Source: Mitsuokella jalaludinii DSM 13811
Lineage (GTDB): Bacteria > Bacillota > Negativicutes > Selenomonadales > Selenomonadaceae
Direction: 5' to 3'
Length of the DNA stretch: 64,000 nucleotides
Assembly (NCBI RefSeq): GCF_000702905.1
Contig: NZ_JNKR01000009.1
Coordinates: forward strand, 1-64,000
Made by a program: the position numbers and the translations under genes. The number at the start of each line of letters is the position of its first letter. The first letter of the stretch is position 1. The notes under the pieces were generated by a model. It saw nothing but the letters and a program-made list of their open reading frames with translations, did not search any database and had not been told where the DNA came from. This document shows, in pieces, positions 6,009 through 47,688 of the stretch.

Positions 6009-8096
6009 TCAGTCCCAGCCGAGCTTCTGGCGCTGTGCCTCGATGTCTGCGACGATCTCCTTGCCGAGAGCGATCGGGTCGACATTGACGTGCATGACAG
6101 AGCCGAGCAGCTCTCTCGTATCACGCTTGAGGAAATTCTCCACATTCGTCGAGCCCTGGACAGGCGGCTCGACACAGTGGTAGGAGTCGACGCCGAACAG
6201 GCGGAACGCCAGCGAAGCATCCAGTCCCTTTTCATTCGACCACTCCGGGCTCGAGAAGGCGTATGGCATATCCTTGATTGCCTTGCCCGCAACGGCTGCA
6301 ATACCGCCGAAGATGGCAGACGAACGCGTGTTGTCGACGCATTCGCCAACATGCCAGACAGGAGGCAGATCGTATTCCTTGAGGAAGGCCTTCAGCGAGG
6401 CGCCGGCCTCCTCTGCCCCGTCCTTGCTGCAGAGTCCCATCTTGAGCAGCGGGAACGAGGCGCAGCCATTCGTCAGGATCAGGATATTGTTCTGGATCAG
6501 CGTGCGCGCGACATCGAGCGTAGCGCGCTCGTAGACGACGCGCGGATTCGAGCAGCCGACGATGTTGCAGATGCCGCGGATGCGGCCGTCCTTGAGCGCT
6601 TCGTAGAGGCCCTTGAAGCCATCGAACTGCTCGGCGACGTTCTCCGCCGTGAAGCCAACCTCAGCCGTGACCTCGTACTTCGGGATGTGCACGGGGATGT
6701 CGCGGCGCTCCGCGAAGCTCTCGATGGCGCGTGTGACAATCTTGCGCGCAATCTTCTCGGTATCCTCGACGTTCGAATGATGATGGTCGTAGGCATAGTG
6801 CTCCGCGCCCGGCAGGCGGGCATTCTCCGACGTCGTGACGACAGTCGTCTTGAAGCAGCGGGCCACATCCATGATGGCCGGGTAGACATCCTGGACGTCG
6901 GCGCACCAGAGGTCAAGTGCACCCGTGCCGAGCACGAGCTCAGCGCCGACAGCATTCGAGAGTGGGATGACGCCCTCGTAGCGGTACATGGCCGCAAGGC
7001 AGGAGCAGCAGACGCCGTAGAACTGGATGCCCTCTGCGCCATGCGCCTTGGCAAGCTCGATCATCTCCGGCGTGCGGCCGACGCGGACAATCTCGCTGAC
7101 GAGTGTAGGCAGATGGCCGTGCACGGCGATGTTGACCCAGCCCTCCTTGAGCGCGCCGATGTTGACCTTCGAGGTCGCGCGGTGGCCATTGCCGAAGAGC
7201 ACATCCGTGCCGATGTTCGCCGCGACGACACCCGTGAAGCAGAAGGCGAGGCCGCAGCGCAGGAATTCCTGCATGAGGCTCTCCCAGTCACCGTCCGTGC
7301 CGACAGCCGTGCGGTGATAGGCGTCAAAGACCTCGTTGTAGGCGCTGATGGGGATGATGTCGAGCTTGTCCCAGACATCCTGGCGCTCTTTCGGCGCCAT
7401 CGCGCGGATGGTCTTGTAGTCATCAGGAACAGCGCGGCTCAGGTCCTCGAGCAGGATGTCGGCGAGCTCGCCCGTGAGCTCGCGGGCCGACTTCCCTTCC
7501 GTCTCGAGGCCGAATGCCTTCGATACCGTGCGGAGCTTCTTCTCGCCGAGGATTGGCAGCTTGAGGCGCCCCTCTGCGACGAACTTCATCGAGAGCAGGA
7601 GCTCGCGGGCATGTGCGCCGTGCTGGGCGACGCCTGCGGCCGCACTGCGCAGCAGGTTGCGGGCCACGATGACATCGGCATCCGCACCGCAGACGCCGCG
7701 CGGACTCTTCTTCGTGATTTTGCAAGGCCCCATATTGCAGTTCTTGCAGCAGACGCCGGCGAGGCCGAACGTACACTGCGGCTTCTGCTGGTCGAAGCGA
7801 TCGAAGATTGTCTCGTGGCCGAGCTGCCCGAGGTACTTGATCATCTCGCGCACAGCCGGGTCCGGTGTCTGCTCGAGGACATCCTCTTTCGAGGCAAACG
7901 TCTTGCGATAGGCGGCGACAGCCGTCATGTAGTCGTTGACGCCGATCTCGTGATGCTCGCCCGGCGCATGGACGTGCGTGCGCCAGTCCGGATGCTCACC
8001 CGGTTTCAGCGGGCTTTCCTCGTGGTGATGGTGATGATGGTGATGACCGTGCTCATGGTCATGCTCGTGATGATGCGTGTGTTTCTCTTCCGCCAT
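6009..8096 (-). CDS. cooS: Variant carbon monoxide dehydrogenase catalytic subunit, His-rich N-terminus
   Basis: The 695-residue product matches the Ni-Fe CODH family along its length. Cys108 and Cys116 fit the D-cluster; Cys117, Cys120, Cys125 and Cys136 fit the B-cluster. For the C-cluster, HGH near 326-328, the Cys363/364 pair, Cys515 (VGCSNP), Cys545 (TNGCAS) and Cys586 (GECVDN) are present. The expected Cys of the DVQC motif, Cys333 in Carboxydothermus CooS-II, is Asp403 (DVQD); a Cys lies five residues earlier at 398. The first 50 residues hold more than 15 histidines, as in nickel-storage tails. No cooC, cooF or acetyl-CoA synthase gene is adjacent, so CO oxidation is doubtful; it may be one of the altered-cluster CooS paralogues. 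Start has GGAGGG 4 bases upstream. It has its own promoter. Confidence 0.9.
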   Translation of the reverse strand: MAEEKHTHHHEHDHEHGHHHHHHHHEESPLKPGEHPDWRTHVHAPGEHHEIGVNDYMTAVAAYRKTFASKEDVLEQTPDPAVREMIKYLGQLGHETIFDRFDQQKPQCTFGLAGVCCKNCNMGPCKITKKSPRGVCGADADVIVARNLLRSAAAGVAQHGAHARELLLSMKFVAEGRLKLPILGEKKLRTVSKAFGLETEGKSARELTGELADILLEDLSRAVPDDYKTIRAMAPKERQDVWDKLDIIPISAYNEVFDAYHRTAVGTDGDWESLMQEFLRCGLAFCFTGVVAANIGTDVLFGNGHRATSKVNIGALKEGWVNIAVHGHLPTLVSEIVRVGRTPEMIELAKAHGAEGIQFYGVCCSCLAAMYRYEGVIPLSNAVGAELVLGTGALDLWCADVQDVYPAIMDVARCFKTTVVTTSENARLPGAEHYAYDHHHSNVEDTEKIARKIVTRAIESFAERRDIPVHIPKYEVTAEVGFTAENVAEQFDGFKGLYEALKDGRIRGICNIVGCSNPRVVYERATLDVARTLIQNNILILTNGCASFPLLKMGLCSKDGAEEAGASLKAFLKEYDLPPVWHVGECVDNTRSSAIFGGIAAVAGKAIKDMPYAFSSPEWSNEKGLDASLAFRLFGVDSYHCVEPPVQGSTNVENFLKRDTRELLGSVMHVNVDPIALGKEIVADIEAQRQKLGWD

Positions 8097-8135
8097 AATA
8101 CCCTCCTGTATCCTGCTCTCCAGATTAATATCAGT

Positions 8136-8160
8136 AAAACATATATAAATGGTATATTTT
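8136..8160. promoter_or_regulatory. Operator-like palindrome downstream of the cooS promoter
   Basis: The 25-base element AAAACATAT-N7-GTATATTTT is an imperfect palindrome (7 of 9 arm positions) about 10 bases past the -10 hexamer. It copies the perfect palindrome at 9483-9507 before the neighbouring transporter gene, in length, spacing and position. The location around the start of transcription suggests repression by a shared dimeric regulator, which is not identified. Confidence 0.6.
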
Positions 8161-8170
8161 CTTATTTCCT

Positions 8171-8199
8171 ATCATACTGGCTCCTCGCGCTTTTGTCAA
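8171..8199 (-). promoter_or_regulatory. Promoter of the cooS-like gene
   Basis: On the minus strand TTGACA (8199-8194), a 17-base spacer and TATGAT (8176-8171) form a near-consensus sigma-A promoter. The -35 hexamer overlaps the last codons of the OFA transporter gene, so cooS has its own transcript. Confidence 0.7.
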
Positions 8200-9410
8200 G
8201 CCGCGGCATGGAAACGCGCGGCCGCACTGGTGATGCCGAAACGCTGCAATACGAGCGCGATGATGAAGTTCAGCACGAAACAGCCTGCGAAGAAGAGCAG
8301 CGGGACGGTGTAGCCGCCCGTCTGGGCGCGCAGCCACGAGACGAGCATCGGGCCGACGATGCCCGCTGCTGCCCAGGCCGTCAGCATGCGGCCGTGCACA
8401 GCGCCCAGGAGGCGCGTGCCGAAAAGGTCCGTCAGGTAGGCCGGCATGACGGAGAAACCGCCGCCCGAGCAGCTCGTAATCAGGAAGATCATCGCCTGGA
8501 ACAGGAAGGCGTCGCGCGTATTGCCGAGCTGCCAGAAGGCGATGATCTCCATGAGGAAGAACAGCGCGTACATGCGGCCACGGCCAATGTAATCCGAGAC
8601 AGTCGACCAGATGAAGCGGCCACCGCCATTGAAGAGGCCGATGAGCCCGACCATCGCCGCCGCTGCGCCCGGCTCCATGCCGATGACATCCTGCGCCATC
8701 GGCGCTGCGAGCGCAAAGAGGGCGATGCCGCAGGCGATGTTGACGAAGAAGACCCACCAGAGCGAGGCAAACTGCCATGTCTTGAACGCATCAGCAGCCG
8801 TCGGCCCCGTCTCGACCAGTGTCTTCGCATGCGTGCAGGCCATGCTGTCCGCAGGCGGCTTGAGGTACAGCGAGGCCGCCAGCATGATGGCCACGTAGAG
8901 CGTGCCCATGATCAGGAAGTTCTCGGCGATGCCGAAGGTCGCCGTGACCTGCTGCATCGTCGGCCCGGCGAACAGCGTCGCAAAGCCAAAGCCCATGATG
9001 GCCAGTCCCGTCGCGAGGCCGCGGTTGTGTGGGAAGTAGCGGATGAGCGTCGACACAGGCGCCATATAGCCGATGCCGATGCCCACGCCGCCGAGCACGC
9101 CGTAGAAGAGATAGACGAGCGGCAGGGTGTGCCAGGAAATCGCCAGATACGTGCCGAACATCGCCAGAGCGAAGAACGCCGTTGAAAGAAGGCCGCTCTT
9201 CTTCGGCCCGATCTTCTCGACAAAATTGCCGAGGAAGCACGTCGTGATGCCGAGGAAGAGGATGGCCGTCGAGAAGACGCCCGTCGTCTCCGAGAGCGTG
9301 ATGCCCATCTCCGCCATGATGGGACGCGTCAAGACGCTCCAGGCATAGACGCTGCCGATTGAGATGTGGATGCCGATAGCCGCCAACGCGATGAGCCAGC
9401 GATTTCGCAT
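8196..9410 (-). CDS. OFA-family MFS transporter (oxalate/formate antiporter-like)
   Basis: This 404-residue, 12-helix membrane protein starts with the family-typical segment IGIHISIGSVYAWSVL and carries MFS loop residues after helix 2 (EKIGPKK) and a central loop with PPADS. OFA members exchange small carboxylates such as oxalate, formate, lactate or pyruvate; the substrate here is not determined. The start follows GGAGGAG by 5 bases. It sits just upstream of the cooS-like gene but has its own promoter, and both promoters carry the same palindrome, so they probably respond to one regulator. A tandem 11-bp duplication lies directly before its ribosome site. Confidence 0.85.
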   Translation of the reverse strand: MRNRWLIALAAIGIHISIGSVYAWSVLTRPIMAEMGITLSETTGVFSTAILFLGITTCFLGNFVEKIGPKKSGLLSTAFFALAMFGTYLAISWHTLPLVYLFYGVLGGVGIGIGYMAPVSTLIRYFPHNRGLATGLAIMGFGFATLFAGPTMQQVTATFGIAENFLIMGTLYVAIMLAASLYLKPPADSMACTHAKTLVETGPTAADAFKTWQFASLWWVFFVNIACGIALFALAAPMAQDVIGMEPGAAAAMVGLIGLFNGGGRFIWSTVSDYIGRGRMYALFFLMEIIAFWQLGNTRDAFLFQAMIFLITSCSGGGFSVMPAYLTDLFGTRLLGAVHGRMLTAWAAAGIVGPMLVSWLRAQTGGYTVPLLFFAGCFVLNFIIALVLQRFGITSAAARFHAAA

Positions 9411-9482: not shown

Positions 9483-9507
9483 AAAACATATTAATTATAT
9501 ATGTTTT
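9483..9507. promoter_or_regulatory. Perfect 25-bp palindrome downstream of the OFA promoter
   Basis: AAAACATAT-N7-ATATGTTTT has perfect 9-bp arms and lies about 13 bases past the -10 hexamer of the OFA gene. Its near copy at 8136-8160 occupies the same place before cooS. Proposed binding site for a shared repressor or sensor of unknown identity. Confidence 0.65.
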
Positions 9508-9520
9508 AACTCACGCTTCT

Positions 9521-9560
9521 ATCATAGCAAATGTAAACATATCACGTCAATAGGTTTACA
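9521..9560 (-). promoter_or_regulatory. OFA promoter with overlapping inverted repeat
   Basis: On the minus strand TTGACG (9550-9545), an 18-base spacer and TATGAT (9526-9521) form the promoter. A second inverted repeat, TGTAAAC-N15-GTTTACA (9532-9560), spans the -35 region and could bind another regulator. The rest of 9411-9569 has no gene. Confidence 0.6.
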
Positions 9561-20062: not shown

Positions 20063-21001
20063 TCACTTCTGCAGGCTGGCGCGGAAGGCGGCAATGCCGC
20101 GGATATCGTCCGGCGTCGTGCGGCAGCAGCCGCCAATGAGGCGTGCGCCCGCTTCGTACCACTGACGCACAAAGTCGCGATACGGCGTAGGGCTGCCGTG
20201 CCACGTCTTTGTCACCGCATCATACGTCTCGCCTGTATTCGGGTAGACGACGACGGGCTTCGTGGTGTGCACGCGGATATTGCGGATGAGGTCGGCCACG
20301 TACTGCGGTGCCGTGCAGTTGACGCCGATGGCTGTGACCTGGCGCTCCTTGTCGAGCAGCCGCGCGCAGTCTGCGATGGCATCGCCACCGCAGGTGTGCG
20401 CCTCATCCTTGCACGAGAACGAGATCCAGGCCCCCATGTCTGGGTAGTGGTGCAAGTCCGCGAGGATGGCCAGCGCTTCATCGAGCAGAGGCATCGTCTC
20501 GCAGGCCAGGATGTCCGGCTCAGCCGCGACGAGGATGTCGAGGCGCTCCGCATGGAAATCTGCAAGCTCTGCGCGGCTCGCCCTGTAGTCGCCGCGGTAC
20601 TCCGAGCCGTCAGCGAGATAGGCGCCATACGGGCCGACCGAGGCGGCTGCTAGCGGCTGCGGGCGGCCTGCACGCTTCGCCTTTTGCTGCCAGAACGCAT
20701 CGCGCGCCTGCTGCACGAGGCGGACTGAGCGCACGATGAGCTCTTTTGCCTGCTCGCGCGTGAAGCCCTTCTTCTCGAAGCCCTCAACCGTCGCCTGATA
20801 GCTCGCACTCGTCGAGACATCTGCACCGGCCTCGTAGTAGTCACGGTGAACAGCCTCGACGAGCTCCGGCTTCTCGAAGAGTGCCTTGGCCGACCAGAGT
20901 TCATCATTCGTGTCAAAACCGCGCCGCGCGAGCTCCGTGCCAAAGGCACCGTCGAGCACGAGCAGCGGGTATCTCTCTAGATTGCGTGCAACCGTATCCA
21001 T
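20063..21001 (-). CDS. mmuM: Homocysteine S-methyltransferase
   Basis: The 312-residue zinc enzyme transfers a methyl group from S-methylmethionine (or S-adenosylmethionine) to homocysteine, giving methionine. Motifs: LVLDGAFGTELARRG at the start, ASVGPYGAYLADGSEYRG, and zinc ligands in GVNC and the GGCCRTTP pair near residue 287. ATG 21001 is preceded by GGGGACGGAG; in-frame codons upstream lie inside the preceding gene. It follows the amino-acid binding lipoprotein gene by 40 bases, which hints that this protein captures S-methylmethionine or methionine. No S-box or T-box was seen upstream of the pair. Confidence 0.92.
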   Translation of the reverse strand: MDTVARNLERYPLLVLDGAFGTELARRGFDTNDELWSAKALFEKPELVEAVHRDYYEAGADVSTSASYQATVEGFEKKGFTREQAKELIVRSVRLVQQARDAFWQQKAKRAGRPQPLAAASVGPYGAYLADGSEYRGDYRASRAELADFHAERLDILVAAEPDILACETMPLLDEALAILADLHHYPDMGAWISFSCKDEAHTCGGDAIADCARLLDKERQVTAIGVNCTAPQYVADLIRNIRVHTTKPVVVYPNTGETYDAVTKTWHGSPTPYRDFVRQWYEAGARLIGGCCRTTPDDIRGIAAFRASLQK

Positions 21002-21018
21002 AAATCTCCGTCCCCTTC

Positions 21019-21042
21019 TGTCTTTTCCATTGTCTTTTCCAT
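21019..21042 (-). repeat. Tandem 12-bp duplication before the mmuM ribosome site
   Basis: TGTCTTTTCCAT occurs twice in a row (21019-21030, 21031-21042). It fills the gap between the upstream stop codon and the Shine-Dalgarno of mmuM. Confidence 0.85.
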
Positions 21043-21842
21043 TACTGCAGCAATTCCTGCGGCGGCTGCTTGCCGAACCACTTCTCGTAGATCTCCGCGA
21101 ACTTGCCGTTCGCCTTGATCTTCGCGAGACCGTCATCGATCTTCGTCAGGAGCTCGGTATTCCCCTTGAGCACGGCGATGCCGAGGTCTTCCTTCGTCAA
21201 GGCCACCTCTGCCGAGCGGACTTTCTTATTGCCTGCATGGCTCACATAGTACTCATTCGTCGGGATGTCGTTGACAACAGCATCGACGCCGCCGTTCTGT
21301 ACCTCGAGAAACGCCTCATTGATGGCATTGAATACGCGCACATTGGCGCCGGGGATCTTGCGCGCGGCCTCCTCGCCTGTCGAGCCGATCGAGACGCCGA
21401 GCGTCTTGCCCTGCAGATCCTCTGCTGTGTGAATCGTGTCATTGTCCGCCCGCGTGACGACACCGAGGCCTGCGATGTAGTACGGCTTCGAGAAATCCAC
21501 CGACTGCTTGCGGTCATCCGTGATTGTGATGTCGTTGATCGCGACATCAATTTCCTTAGCCTGCAAAGCCGGGATCAGGCCGTCAAAGGAGCGGTTGCTG
21601 ATCTCTACGTCAAAGCCTTCTGCCTCACCGATGGCTCGGATGATATCGACATCGAAGCCCTCATAGTCCTTCGTCTCCTGATTCTGTGAGCCGAACGGCG
21701 GATAGCTCGCATCCATGCCGACGCGCAGCACACGCTGCCCGGAACTCTTCGTATCCGAAGAGCCAGTCTGGCCGCAGCCAGCCATAAGAGTTGCCGCTCC
21801 GAGCAGGCAAACAGCCAATAGCAATGAGAACACTTTCTTCAT
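21042..21842 (-). CDS. Amino-acid ABC-type substrate-binding lipoprotein
   Basis: This 266-residue protein has a signal peptide with lipobox LMAGC (Cys23) and a family 3 solute-binding fold: GMDASYPPFG, GFDVDIIRAIG, INDITITDDRKQ, GSTGEEAA. It should bind a polar or sulfur amino acid outside the inner membrane. No permease or ATPase gene is adjacent, so it is an orphan that must borrow a transporter. Co-transcription with mmuM suggests methionine, S-methylmethionine or homocysteine as ligand; this is inference. Confidence 0.88.
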   Translation of the reverse strand: MKKVFSLLLAVCLLGAATLMAGCGQTGSSDTKSSGQRVLRVGMDASYPPFGSQNQETKDYEGFDVDIIRAIGEAEGFDVEISNRSFDGLIPALQAKEIDVAINDITITDDRKQSVDFSKPYYIAGLGVVTRADNDTIHTAEDLQGKTLGVSIGSTGEEAARKIPGANVRVFNAINEAFLEVQNGGVDAVVNDIPTNEYYVSHAGNKKVRSAEVALTKEDLGIAVLKGNTELLTKIDDGLAKIKANGKFAEIYEKWFGKQPPQELLQ

Positions 21843-21893
21843 ATCATGAACACCCCACAGAACTATACAGAATTATATTGTAACGTTGTTATA

Positions 21894-21922
21894 ATCATAC
21901 ATTAGTATACATAGCATGTCAA
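21894..21922 (-). promoter_or_regulatory. Promoter of the binding protein-mmuM operon
   Basis: On the minus strand a perfect TTGACA (21922-21917), 17-base spacer and TATGAT (21899-21894). The leader of about 45 bases is too short for a SAM riboswitch. Confidence 0.75.
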
Positions 21923-22056
21923 TATGTTTTTTTGATCATCTCACACTATGACGACAATCTGATTTTTCTATGAAGATATGGCTAGCTATTTCCCATAAAT
22001 TGATTGACTTTTCTCACCGTTTTGTTTTACACTGGCAGGGAAAGGAGTGGTTCATC

Positions 22057-23466
22057 ATGAACAAAAAGCAACGCAATGCCTTGATCACCATCGCGATTGG
22101 TGCTGCGATCTGGTTTGCACCAGTACCAGCAGGCGTCACGGTCGTGGCCTGGCACCTGGCGGCGGTCTTCATCGCCACGGTCGTCGGATTTATCCTGCAG
22201 CCGCTGCCCATTGGCGCCGTCGCCTTCATCGCCATCACCTTCTCGACCCTCAGCGGCCTGCTCAAGGTCAGCGATGCATTGAGCGGCTACGGCAATTCCA
22301 CCATTTGGCTGATTGTCTGCGCCTTCCTCTACTCGCGCGGCTTCATCAAGAGCGGCCTCGGCAAGCGCATCGCCTTTGGCATCATCAAGGCTATCGGCAA
22401 GAGCGCCCTGTCCCTCGGCTACGCAATTGCCTTCAGTGAACTCATCATCTCCCCCGCCACGCCATCGGCAACAGCTCGCGGCGGCGGCATCATGTACCCG
22501 ATTGTCCGCTCTCTCGCCGGTGCACTCGGATCTGAACCGAACGAAACGGCTAAGAAGATTGGCACGTATCTCATGCAGGTCGGCTATCACTGCGACGCCG
22601 TCACCTGCACGATGTTCGTGACATCCATGGCAGGCAACCCGCTCTGCGTAGCACTCGCGGCCAAGACGCTCGGCGTCGAGATCACTTGGATGGGCTGGGC
22701 CAGCGCGGCCATCGTGCCGGGCCTCTTGAGTCTATTGCTCGTGCCGCTCGTCATGCTCAAATTGACGAAACCGGAGCTCGTCAGCATCCCAGATGCCAAG
22801 CACCTCGCACAGAAAGAGCTCGACGCCATGGGACCGATGTCGCGCAGTGAGAAATACCTGACGGTCGTCTTTCTCGGCTCGCTCTTCTTCTGGGCAACAT
22901 CCGGCCTCACGCATATCGGCGCGACGCCAGTCGCCATGGCAGCCGTCTGCGTCATGATCATCGTCGACGTCATCAACTGGAAAGATGTCCTCAGCGAGAA
23001 GGGCGCCTGGGATGCCATGTTCTGGATGGGCTCCCTGATGACGCTCGCCTCGGCTCTCGCAAAGTCCGGCATCATCAAATGGATGGCGAACTCCGCCGGT
23101 GCCGCCATCTCCTCGCTCGGACTCGGCTGGGTCGCTTCAGCGCTCATCCTGCTGCTCTTCTACACCTACATCCACTACTGCTTCGCCAGCGTTACGGCGC
23201 GCATCAGTGCTCTTTACGCGGCCTTCATCGCCGTCAGCGTCGCCGTCGGCGCGCCGCCGCTCATGACGGCCATCATCTTCGGCATCTTCGCCGACGTGCC
23301 GATTTCCCTGACGCATTACGGCAATGGCTGCGCCCCGATCTACTACGGCGCAGGCTACGTCTCACAGAGCGAATGGTGGAAGAACGGCTTTGTCATGACG
23401 ACCATCACCACCGTCATCTACCTGACCATCGGTGCCGCCTGGTGGAAAGTCATCGGACTCTGGTAA
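22057..23466 (+). CDS. DASS-family dicarboxylate/anion transporter
   Basis: The 469-residue integral membrane protein has about 12-14 helices and the divalent anion:sodium symporter/antiporter features: LSGYGNSTIWLIVCAF (conserved SNT-like motif), ISPATPSATARGGG and a C-terminal VPISLTHYGNGCAPIYYG segment. Relatives such as CitT and TtdT exchange citrate, tartrate or succinate; the substrate here is open. AAAGGAG precedes ATG 22057 by 9 bases. It is a single plus-strand gene divergent from the binding-protein operon. Confidence 0.9.
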   Translation: MNKKQRNALITIAIGAAIWFAPVPAGVTVVAWHLAAVFIATVVGFILQPLPIGAVAFIAITFSTLSGLLKVSDALSGYGNSTIWLIVCAFLYSRGFIKSGLGKRIAFGIIKAIGKSALSLGYAIAFSELIISPATPSATARGGGIMYPIVRSLAGALGSEPNETAKKIGTYLMQVGYHCDAVTCTMFVTSMAGNPLCVALAAKTLGVEITWMGWASAAIVPGLLSLLLVPLVMLKLTKPELVSIPDAKHLAQKELDAMGPMSRSEKYLTVVFLGSLFFWATSGLTHIGATPVAMAAVCVMIIVDVINWKDVLSEKGAWDAMFWMGSLMTLASALAKSGIIKWMANSAGAAISSLGLGWVASALILLLFYTYIHYCFASVTARISALYAAFIAVSVAVGAPPLMTAIIFGIFADVPISLTHYGNGCAPIYYGAGYVSQSEWWKNGFVMTTITTVIYLTIGAAWWKVIGLW

Positions 23467-47582: not shown

Positions 47583-47688
47583 CTCTCATCTTATAGGCTG
47601 AACCTAAAGGAATTGGCACCGTTTTGACAAAGCGTCAATGGTTGCCGCGGTTTCATTGGGCCAGTCCCTCCGCCGCTCTGGATGTGAG
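47583..47688 (-). promoter_or_regulatory. SAM-I (S-box) riboswitch
   Basis: On the minus strand the conserved S-box core is plain: GGAGGGACTGGCCC, then GAAACCGCGGCAACC, then GGTGCCAATTCC, closed by a P1 stem (CTCACATC with GATGAGAG, one mismatch). High SAM should favour the following terminator and shut off metK. The 47438-47766 spacer holds this element, its terminator and promoter, and the pyrR terminator. Confidence 0.95.

Follow-up and report, generated by a model that had tools for sequence, protein, structure and literature searches.

Among the Ni-CODHs, clade B and its structural group B-1 were described by Inoue et al. (2019; PMC6344411), who defined B-1 by a type II D-cluster, Asp or Glu at the second C-cluster cysteine (Cys2), a full acid-base pair and a His-rich N-terminus, and who linked clade B to NitT/TauT-type ABC transporters, proposed to be metal importers. 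A 2024 survey of the human gut (PMC11338639) counted 493 clade B genes as putative CO-using machinery and left an MFS context in Mitsuokella and a cysteine-synthase context in Megasphaera unexplained, and a 2026 survey (PMC13240472) gave the role of clade B as unknown. No published sulfur role for clade B CODH-like proteins was found in the literature that we searched.

Several other systems are close enough for comparison. CooS-V of Carboxydothermus hydrogenoformans (7b7q) is a CODH scaffold without C1-gene neighbours in which a cysteine ligand has given way to a carboxylate (Cys295 to Glu, plus a second Glu at 556). In the CymR regulon of Bacillus and Staphylococcus (cysK, ssu/tau, met, tcy), the gene of an Rrf2 regulator diverges from cysK, and sulfur-source transporters are under one operator type. 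The SsuABCD and TauABCD systems combine their transporter with one adjoining enzyme under cysteine-starvation control, and in the aerobic systems this enzyme is an oxygenase.

Here, we analysed a 64,000-nt stretch of contig NZ_JNKR01000009.1 of Mitsuokella jalaludinii DSM 13811 (hereafter the window, in which all coordinates are given unless another locus is named). It carries a cooS-type gene that resembles each of these systems in part, and whose product probably serves sulfur acquisition rather than the burning of carbon monoxide.

Results

The CooS-like protein retains most metal-cluster ligands

The start of the cooS-type gene is preceded by an AGGAGG-type ribosome site (features in Table 1). 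Its product passes the model for the anaerobic CODH catalytic subunit (TIGR01702, 500 bits against a cut-off of 478) and also matches the Pfam Prismane family (PF03063); TIGR01703 (HCP) was not among its matches at E 0.001, and the homologue at locus L028 scored 28 bits on that model, far below the cut-off of 360.8; by this model the window protein is not an HCP. The predicted model of the window protein (mean pLDDT 85.5, pTM 0.86) aligned with solved CODHs over about 615 residues, the best match being 6t7j (Z 59.2, 37% identity, 618 aligned residues), and as modelled the protein has the CODH fold. An open frame of 1031 aa on the plus strand (6090-9185), antisense to both cooS and the MFS gene, was taken as an artefact of GC-rich DNA.

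Table 1. Positions of the features discussed, within the window
Feature	Positions	Strand	Basis
CooS/CODH-like protein of clade B-1 type, 695 aa	6009..8096	-	ORF, profile, phmmer, structure match
His-rich N-terminal extension, about residues 1-48, predicted disordered	7953..8096	-	sequence, alignment, predicted model
Cysteines of type II D-cluster (C108, C116) and B-cluster (C117, C120, C125, C136)	7689..7775	-	alignment
Cys398 (codon TGC), Mitsuokella-only, no substitute ligand by alignment	6903..6905	-	alignment, predicted model
Asp403 (codon GAT), in the place of C-cluster Cys333	6888..6890	-	phmmer alignments, codon reading
Glu585-Cys586 (Cys586 = Cys526 equivalent)	6339..6344	-	column comparison
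Predicted CymR-type operator of CooS gene, AAAATATAC-CATTTAT-ATATGTTTT, 2 mismatches	8136..8160	.	pattern scan
Promoter-like TTGACA-17-TATGAT of CooS gene	8171..8199	-	sequence pattern
MFS transporter, OFA/monocarboxylate type	8196..9410	-	SfMCT model, 327 bits, cut-off 320
Predicted CymR-type operator of MFS gene, 0 mismatches over 25 bp	9483..9507	.	pattern scan
Promoter-like TTGACG-18-TATGAT of MFS gene	9521..9550	-	sequence pattern
Second, weaker operator copy of MFS gene, 3 mismatches	9534..9558	.	pattern scan
Further operator copy, 3 mismatches	21906..21930	.	pattern scan

In phmmer alignments with five PDB CODH sequences, read residue by residue, Asp403 shares a column with the cysteine of the DVQC/DYQC motif (Cys333 of CODH-II). 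The full set of five cysteines and one histidine of a functional Ni,Fe-CODH is thus broken at this one position, the other C-cluster ligands (H326, C364, C515, C545 and C586) being retained in the alignment together with the acid-base pair H159 and K623. C108, C116 and C117 fit the Cys-X7-13-Cys-Cys pattern of a type II D-cluster, and the B-cluster cysteines are all present. The first-pass annotation, made from the letters of the window, had reported this Asp, the D- and B-cluster cysteines and most C-cluster ligands, all of which were borne out; it had also treated the swap as unusual, which it is not, as Asp or Glu at Cys2 defines the published group B-1 (PMC6344411).

Position 403 was Asp in 41 of the 42 B-1-like loci, the window locus included, and Glu in the other one, and it was Cys in all 21 more distant CODHs. 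A sequencing or assembly error at codon 403 was therefore rejected. Two nearby cysteines were considered as stand-in ligands and likewise rejected. Cys398, correctly read by the first-pass annotation, occurs in three Mitsuokella-lineage sequences only (Val in the others), and in the predicted model it lies within strand 396-399, five residues upstream of Asp403, which sits in the loop directly after. Cys366, the neighbour of the Cys295 equivalent, is replaced by Gly in 17 of the 42 relatives.

Compared with CODH-II of C. hydrogenoformans (1su6), the protein keeps most of the ligands and matches the fold with Z 53.2 and rmsd 1.7 over 612 residues at 33% identity, but it has Asp for Cys333, Ala for Ile567 and a Glu before the Cys526 equivalent. 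It also differs from CooS-V, to which the first-pass annotation had likened it as an altered CooS with an unusual cluster: the window protein keeps Cys295 (C364), has Asn621 in the place of E556 (by an offset reading), and with its type II D-cluster falls outside the CooS-V type (group D-1, with Glu at Cys295 and a type III D-cluster).

The Asp-bearing proteins form one clade with a changed active site

In a tree of the Asp group and 20 Cys-type CODHs, the named clade A-G references being left out, the Asp-bearing sequences formed a single clade (support 100/100), spanning Bacillota, Campylobacterota, Pseudomonadota, Verrucomicrobiota and Lentisphaerota. Thirty-five columns were fixed differently between the Asp group and Cys-type CODHs. 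Several of these changes lie close to ligands. Three residues past the Cys295 equivalent stands Leu367 (Asn in other CODHs), the Cys476 equivalent is followed by Ser547 (Ala), and the Cys526 equivalent is directly preceded by Glu585 (Ser); further examples are Asn621 (Ser), Gly624 (Ala) and Ala627, where other CODHs have Ile (Ile567). The dN/dS of the window gene against M. multacida was 0.014. Because purifying selection is accompanied by fixed changes beside the ligands, the active site of the Asp group looks changed rather than decaying. The presence of cooS was sporadic, with 27-29 of 151 family genomes carrying it. In some Selenomonadaceae, the gene was fragmented or frame-split (genomes G128, G088 and G090; loci L095, L093 and L092), suggesting repeated loss.

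By its sequence features the window protein matches clade B, structural group B-1, sharing with the published group (PMC6344411) the type II D-cluster, the Asp/Glu, the other ligands, the acid-base His and Lys and the His-rich arm; here, however, an MFS transporter replaces the NitT/TauT ABC partner, and a link to the cysteine regulon is absent from that paper. The swap itself is thus already published, and the regulatory and sulfur context described below appears to be the new part.

The first 84 residues of the protein contain 20 His, and residues 1-53 are predicted to be disordered (pLDDT < 50). This arm is present throughout the B-1-like sequences, which suggests metal handling. The first-pass annotation had called it a nickel-type His tail; its N-terminal position and a part in metal handling agree with our reading, and nickel may be the metal concerned.

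The cooS and MFS promoters share a predicted sulfur-type operator

The MFS gene lies directly upstream of cooS on the same strand, and a 25-bp palindrome, AAAACATAT-N7-ATATGTTTT, is common to the two promoters. The site at the MFS promoter is the best match to the palindrome in the whole genome, and M. multacida has two operator copies at its MFS gene as well. At three mismatches or fewer, 12 sites were found genome-wide, compared with 3 for a reversed control pattern. The other best sites were in the intergenic region between an Rrf2 regulator gene and cysK, and at metN, a dicarboxylate/amino-acid-type symporter gene and metY (O-acetylhomoserine sulfhydrylase). The copy at 21906 lies in the region 20063-23466; it is flanked on one side by the genes of an amino-acid ABC binding protein and a homocysteine S-methyltransferase and on the opposite side by that of a DASS symporter, all of which probably belong to the cysteine regulon too.

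By analogy, the palindrome-bearing genes have the make-up of the CymR regulon of Bacillus and Staphylococcus, including its divergent Rrf2-cysK arrangement, its sulfur-source transporters and its single operator type; two differences are that a CODH-like enzyme is included here and that the regulator stays below the cut-off of the NCBIfam CymR equivalog (94.4 bits against 195). It passes the Rrf2 superfamily model (100.2 bits, cut-off 73.3), and the label CymR-like rests on family, target set and site; such a regulator would be expected to bind the palindrome. NikR was rejected as its owner, since the targets are sulfur genes and the order of the half-sites is opposite to what we take to be that of the Escherichia coli NikR site. 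No riboswitch was detected near cooS by Rfam; a SAM riboswitch (RF00162, 86 bits) lies elsewhere in the window (47583-47688, minus strand). No SsuC orthologue was found in the M. jalaludinii genome (best hit 29% identity), which is consistent with the MFS transporter standing in its place.

To score relatives, a matrix was trained on 12 sites of cymR/cysK and other sulfur genes, the cooS and MFS sites being excluded. A score of at least 18 was reached upstream of 21 of the 34 homologous cooS genes. Of the 1309 other windows (450 bp each) taken from these loci, 6 reached it, as did 5 of 378 AT-rich windows (Fisher p 5e-22 for the cooS upstream regions against the AT-rich set, a value overstated by the relatedness of the loci). 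The six background hits include one ahead of the MFS gene of M. multacida (L003), two ahead of the SsuABC-cooS operon (L022 and L023) and one situated between cooS and its transporter genes (L013); at least three of the six belong to the cooS-transporter unit. A CymR-like orthologue was found in 18 of 20 cooS-bearing Selenomonadaceae genomes, often with a palindrome box. In five further genomes, the best boxes stood before cysK/cymR, metY, the MFS gene and two genes named by eye, one for a MetQ-like lipoprotein and one for a sulfur carrier of ThiS-like type. One of the best sites in M. multacida (L134, at 1501) precedes a glutathione-transferase-like gene, also named by eye. In the Acetivibrio/Clostridium group, related sites (AAAACATATTGGAATA... 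and AAAACATATAGGAATA...) preceded each of the two units, and the operator was not found in Veillonella or Helicobacter. This operator, together with the sulfur-gene neighbourhoods, is the strongest clue to function, and the first-pass annotation had missed it.

Many relatives keep cooS beside sulfur genes

Calling of ORFs and neighbours relied on a simple program, and several of the names were assigned by eye. In 22-26 of the 42 loci, cooS was accompanied by genes for a binding protein, a permease and an ATPase of the sulfonate/taurine/nitrate (SsuABC/TauABC) type. In Megasphaera, the order was T-box, cysE, cysK, cooS, and the T-box specifier read GAA-UGC, in which UGC is a cysteine codon, TGC being the usual cysteine specifier of T-boxes. 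By-eye assignments placed a MetB-like PLP enzyme before the cooS-transporter genes in Acetivibrio and a Clostridium MAG (with a PatB-like one as well in Acetivibrio), an O-acetylhomoserine sulfhydrylase divergent from the unit in a Ruminococcus MAG, and an Rrf2 regulator divergent from the cooS operon in Acetitomaculum. No sulfur neighbours were seen at the Helicobacter cooS. In Clostridium thermobutyricum (L026:6916-9471), a cobalt-type ECF importer (CbiM-CbiQ-ATPase) lies directly upstream of cooS, a possible metal link.

Published expression data touch on one such operon. In Clostridium thermocellum (PMC3848806), Cthe_2801, annotated as 'CO dehydrogenase', and the ABC transporter Cthe_2802-2804 fall into a 16-gene expression cluster that also holds genes for sulfur transport and assimilation, which its authors read in terms of redox balance. 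The Acetivibrio operon at 3.30 Mb (RidA-MetB-PatB-cooS-binding protein-permease-ATPase), with the Asp motif DVQDVFP, is the probable orthologue of Cthe_2801-2804, the identity of its cooS with Cthe_2801 being our inference.

As the first-pass annotation had stated for the neighbourhood, acs is missing, and a search of the whole genome with PF03598 likewise gave no ACS gene; cooC and cooF were not seen near cooS when the ORF list was read by eye. These absences are a further difference from CODH-II. The genome encodes a single other Prismane protein, which is HCP-like, as well as sulfite/nitrite-reductase-type proteins (G000:C2:128148-135413), so that the CooS-like enzyme would not be the sole route from sulfite to sulfide. 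One of the latter matches (128148-128747) has a TGA stop inside.

Discussion

We consider it reasonably probable that the clade B-1 CODH-like enzyme works in sulfur acquisition under CymR-like control, reducing an imported sulfur compound. When cysteine is plentiful, a CymR-like Rrf2 repressor on the shared palindrome would silence cooS and the transporter gene; when cysteine is low, repression would be lifted and both proteins made. The transporter, of the OFA-type MFS family here and an SsuABC/TauABC-type ABC importer in most relatives, would bring in a small sulfur compound. Electrons, with ferredoxin as the probable donor, would enter through the D- and B-clusters, the compound would be reduced at the remodelled site (His, four Cys and Asp403), and the sulfide or sulfite released would be used by CysK and MetY. 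In this scheme, the predicted shared operator and the sulfur neighbourhoods support the steps of regulation and gene context, whereas the substrate, the direction of electron flow (reduction), the metal of the enzyme and the carriage of its substrate by the transporter are inference. The replacement of an ABC importer by an MFS transporter under the same operator argues for an organic or oxyanion sulfur source, not nickel, as the cargo; the MFS score just above the cut-off of a lactate-transporter model counts against the sulfur reading. The suggestion of the first-pass annotation that the protein is not an ordinary CO oxidase and may be a reductase fits the ligand swap and the remodelled site, and a sensor, its other suggestion, found no support.

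The neighbours may instead be uninformative about the substrate, the ABC transporters importing nickel and the His-rich arm inserting it, as the metal hypothesis of Inoue et al. (2019) would have it. The arm is found across the group, and cobalt-type ECF genes adjoin cooS in L026. Among solved binding proteins, 3un6 comes closest (203 bits); it presumably belongs to the putative TauABC operon of Staphylococcus aureus. Inoue et al. called 3un6 metal-binding (PMC6344411), but that S. aureus operon is a published member of the CymR regulon. Nickel import also leaves unexplained the operator common with cysK, metY and metN, the cysteine T-box and the Met/Cys enzymes, and the swap of ABC for MFS importer in Mitsuokella, and we hold it to be unlikely. 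About as doubtful is an enzyme that remains a CO dehydrogenase, with Asp403 ligating a C-cluster iron, CO being oxidised or CO2 reduced, and sulfur control serving redox supply, for example of low-potential electrons for sulfite reduction. The retained His, four of five Cys and acid-base His and Lys, the TIGR01702 score and the fold all agree with it; yet the C-cluster has lost one of its five cysteines, fixed changes flank others and include Ile567 to Ala627, the genome has no ACS, and the operator and sulfur neighbourhoods are without obvious CO logic.

A carboxylate in the metal site, the Prismane fold common to CODH and HCP and the precedent of CooS-V would also suit a hybrid-cluster reductase acting on hydroxylamine, NO or peroxide stress. 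We find this improbable, since the swap is at Cys333 and not Cys295, the residue in the place of the second HCP-type Glu is Asn621 (offset reading), stress-gene neighbours are absent, and the genome has a separate gene for an HCP-like protein. Least credible, and very improbable, is a non-catalytic or decaying paralogue, to which the patchy distribution and the broken copies in a few Selenomonadaceae might point; the low dN/dS, the Asp/Glu kept over several phyla and the preserved promoter and operator speak against it.

If the enzyme does act in sulfur acquisition, it would resemble the SsuABCD and TauABCD systems in transporter type, in control by cysteine starvation and in having one adjoining enzyme, and would differ from them in that this enzyme is an oxygen-independent metalloenzyme. 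Going further, we tentatively suggest, as a possibility that we rate below even, that clade B proteins are O2-independent reductases which release sulfur from imported organosulfur compounds such as sulfonates at an Asp-ligated, possibly Ni-containing C-cluster, as an anaerobic counterpart of SsuD/TauD. A role of the widespread clade B in sulfur acquisition, if true, would mean that genome-based claims of CO use by gut bacteria need correcting. It would also give anaerobic fermenters a candidate enzyme for the use of unusual sulfur sources, and the CODH/HCP scaffold a new type of reaction, in which a carboxylate naturally takes the place of cysteine at a core ligand.
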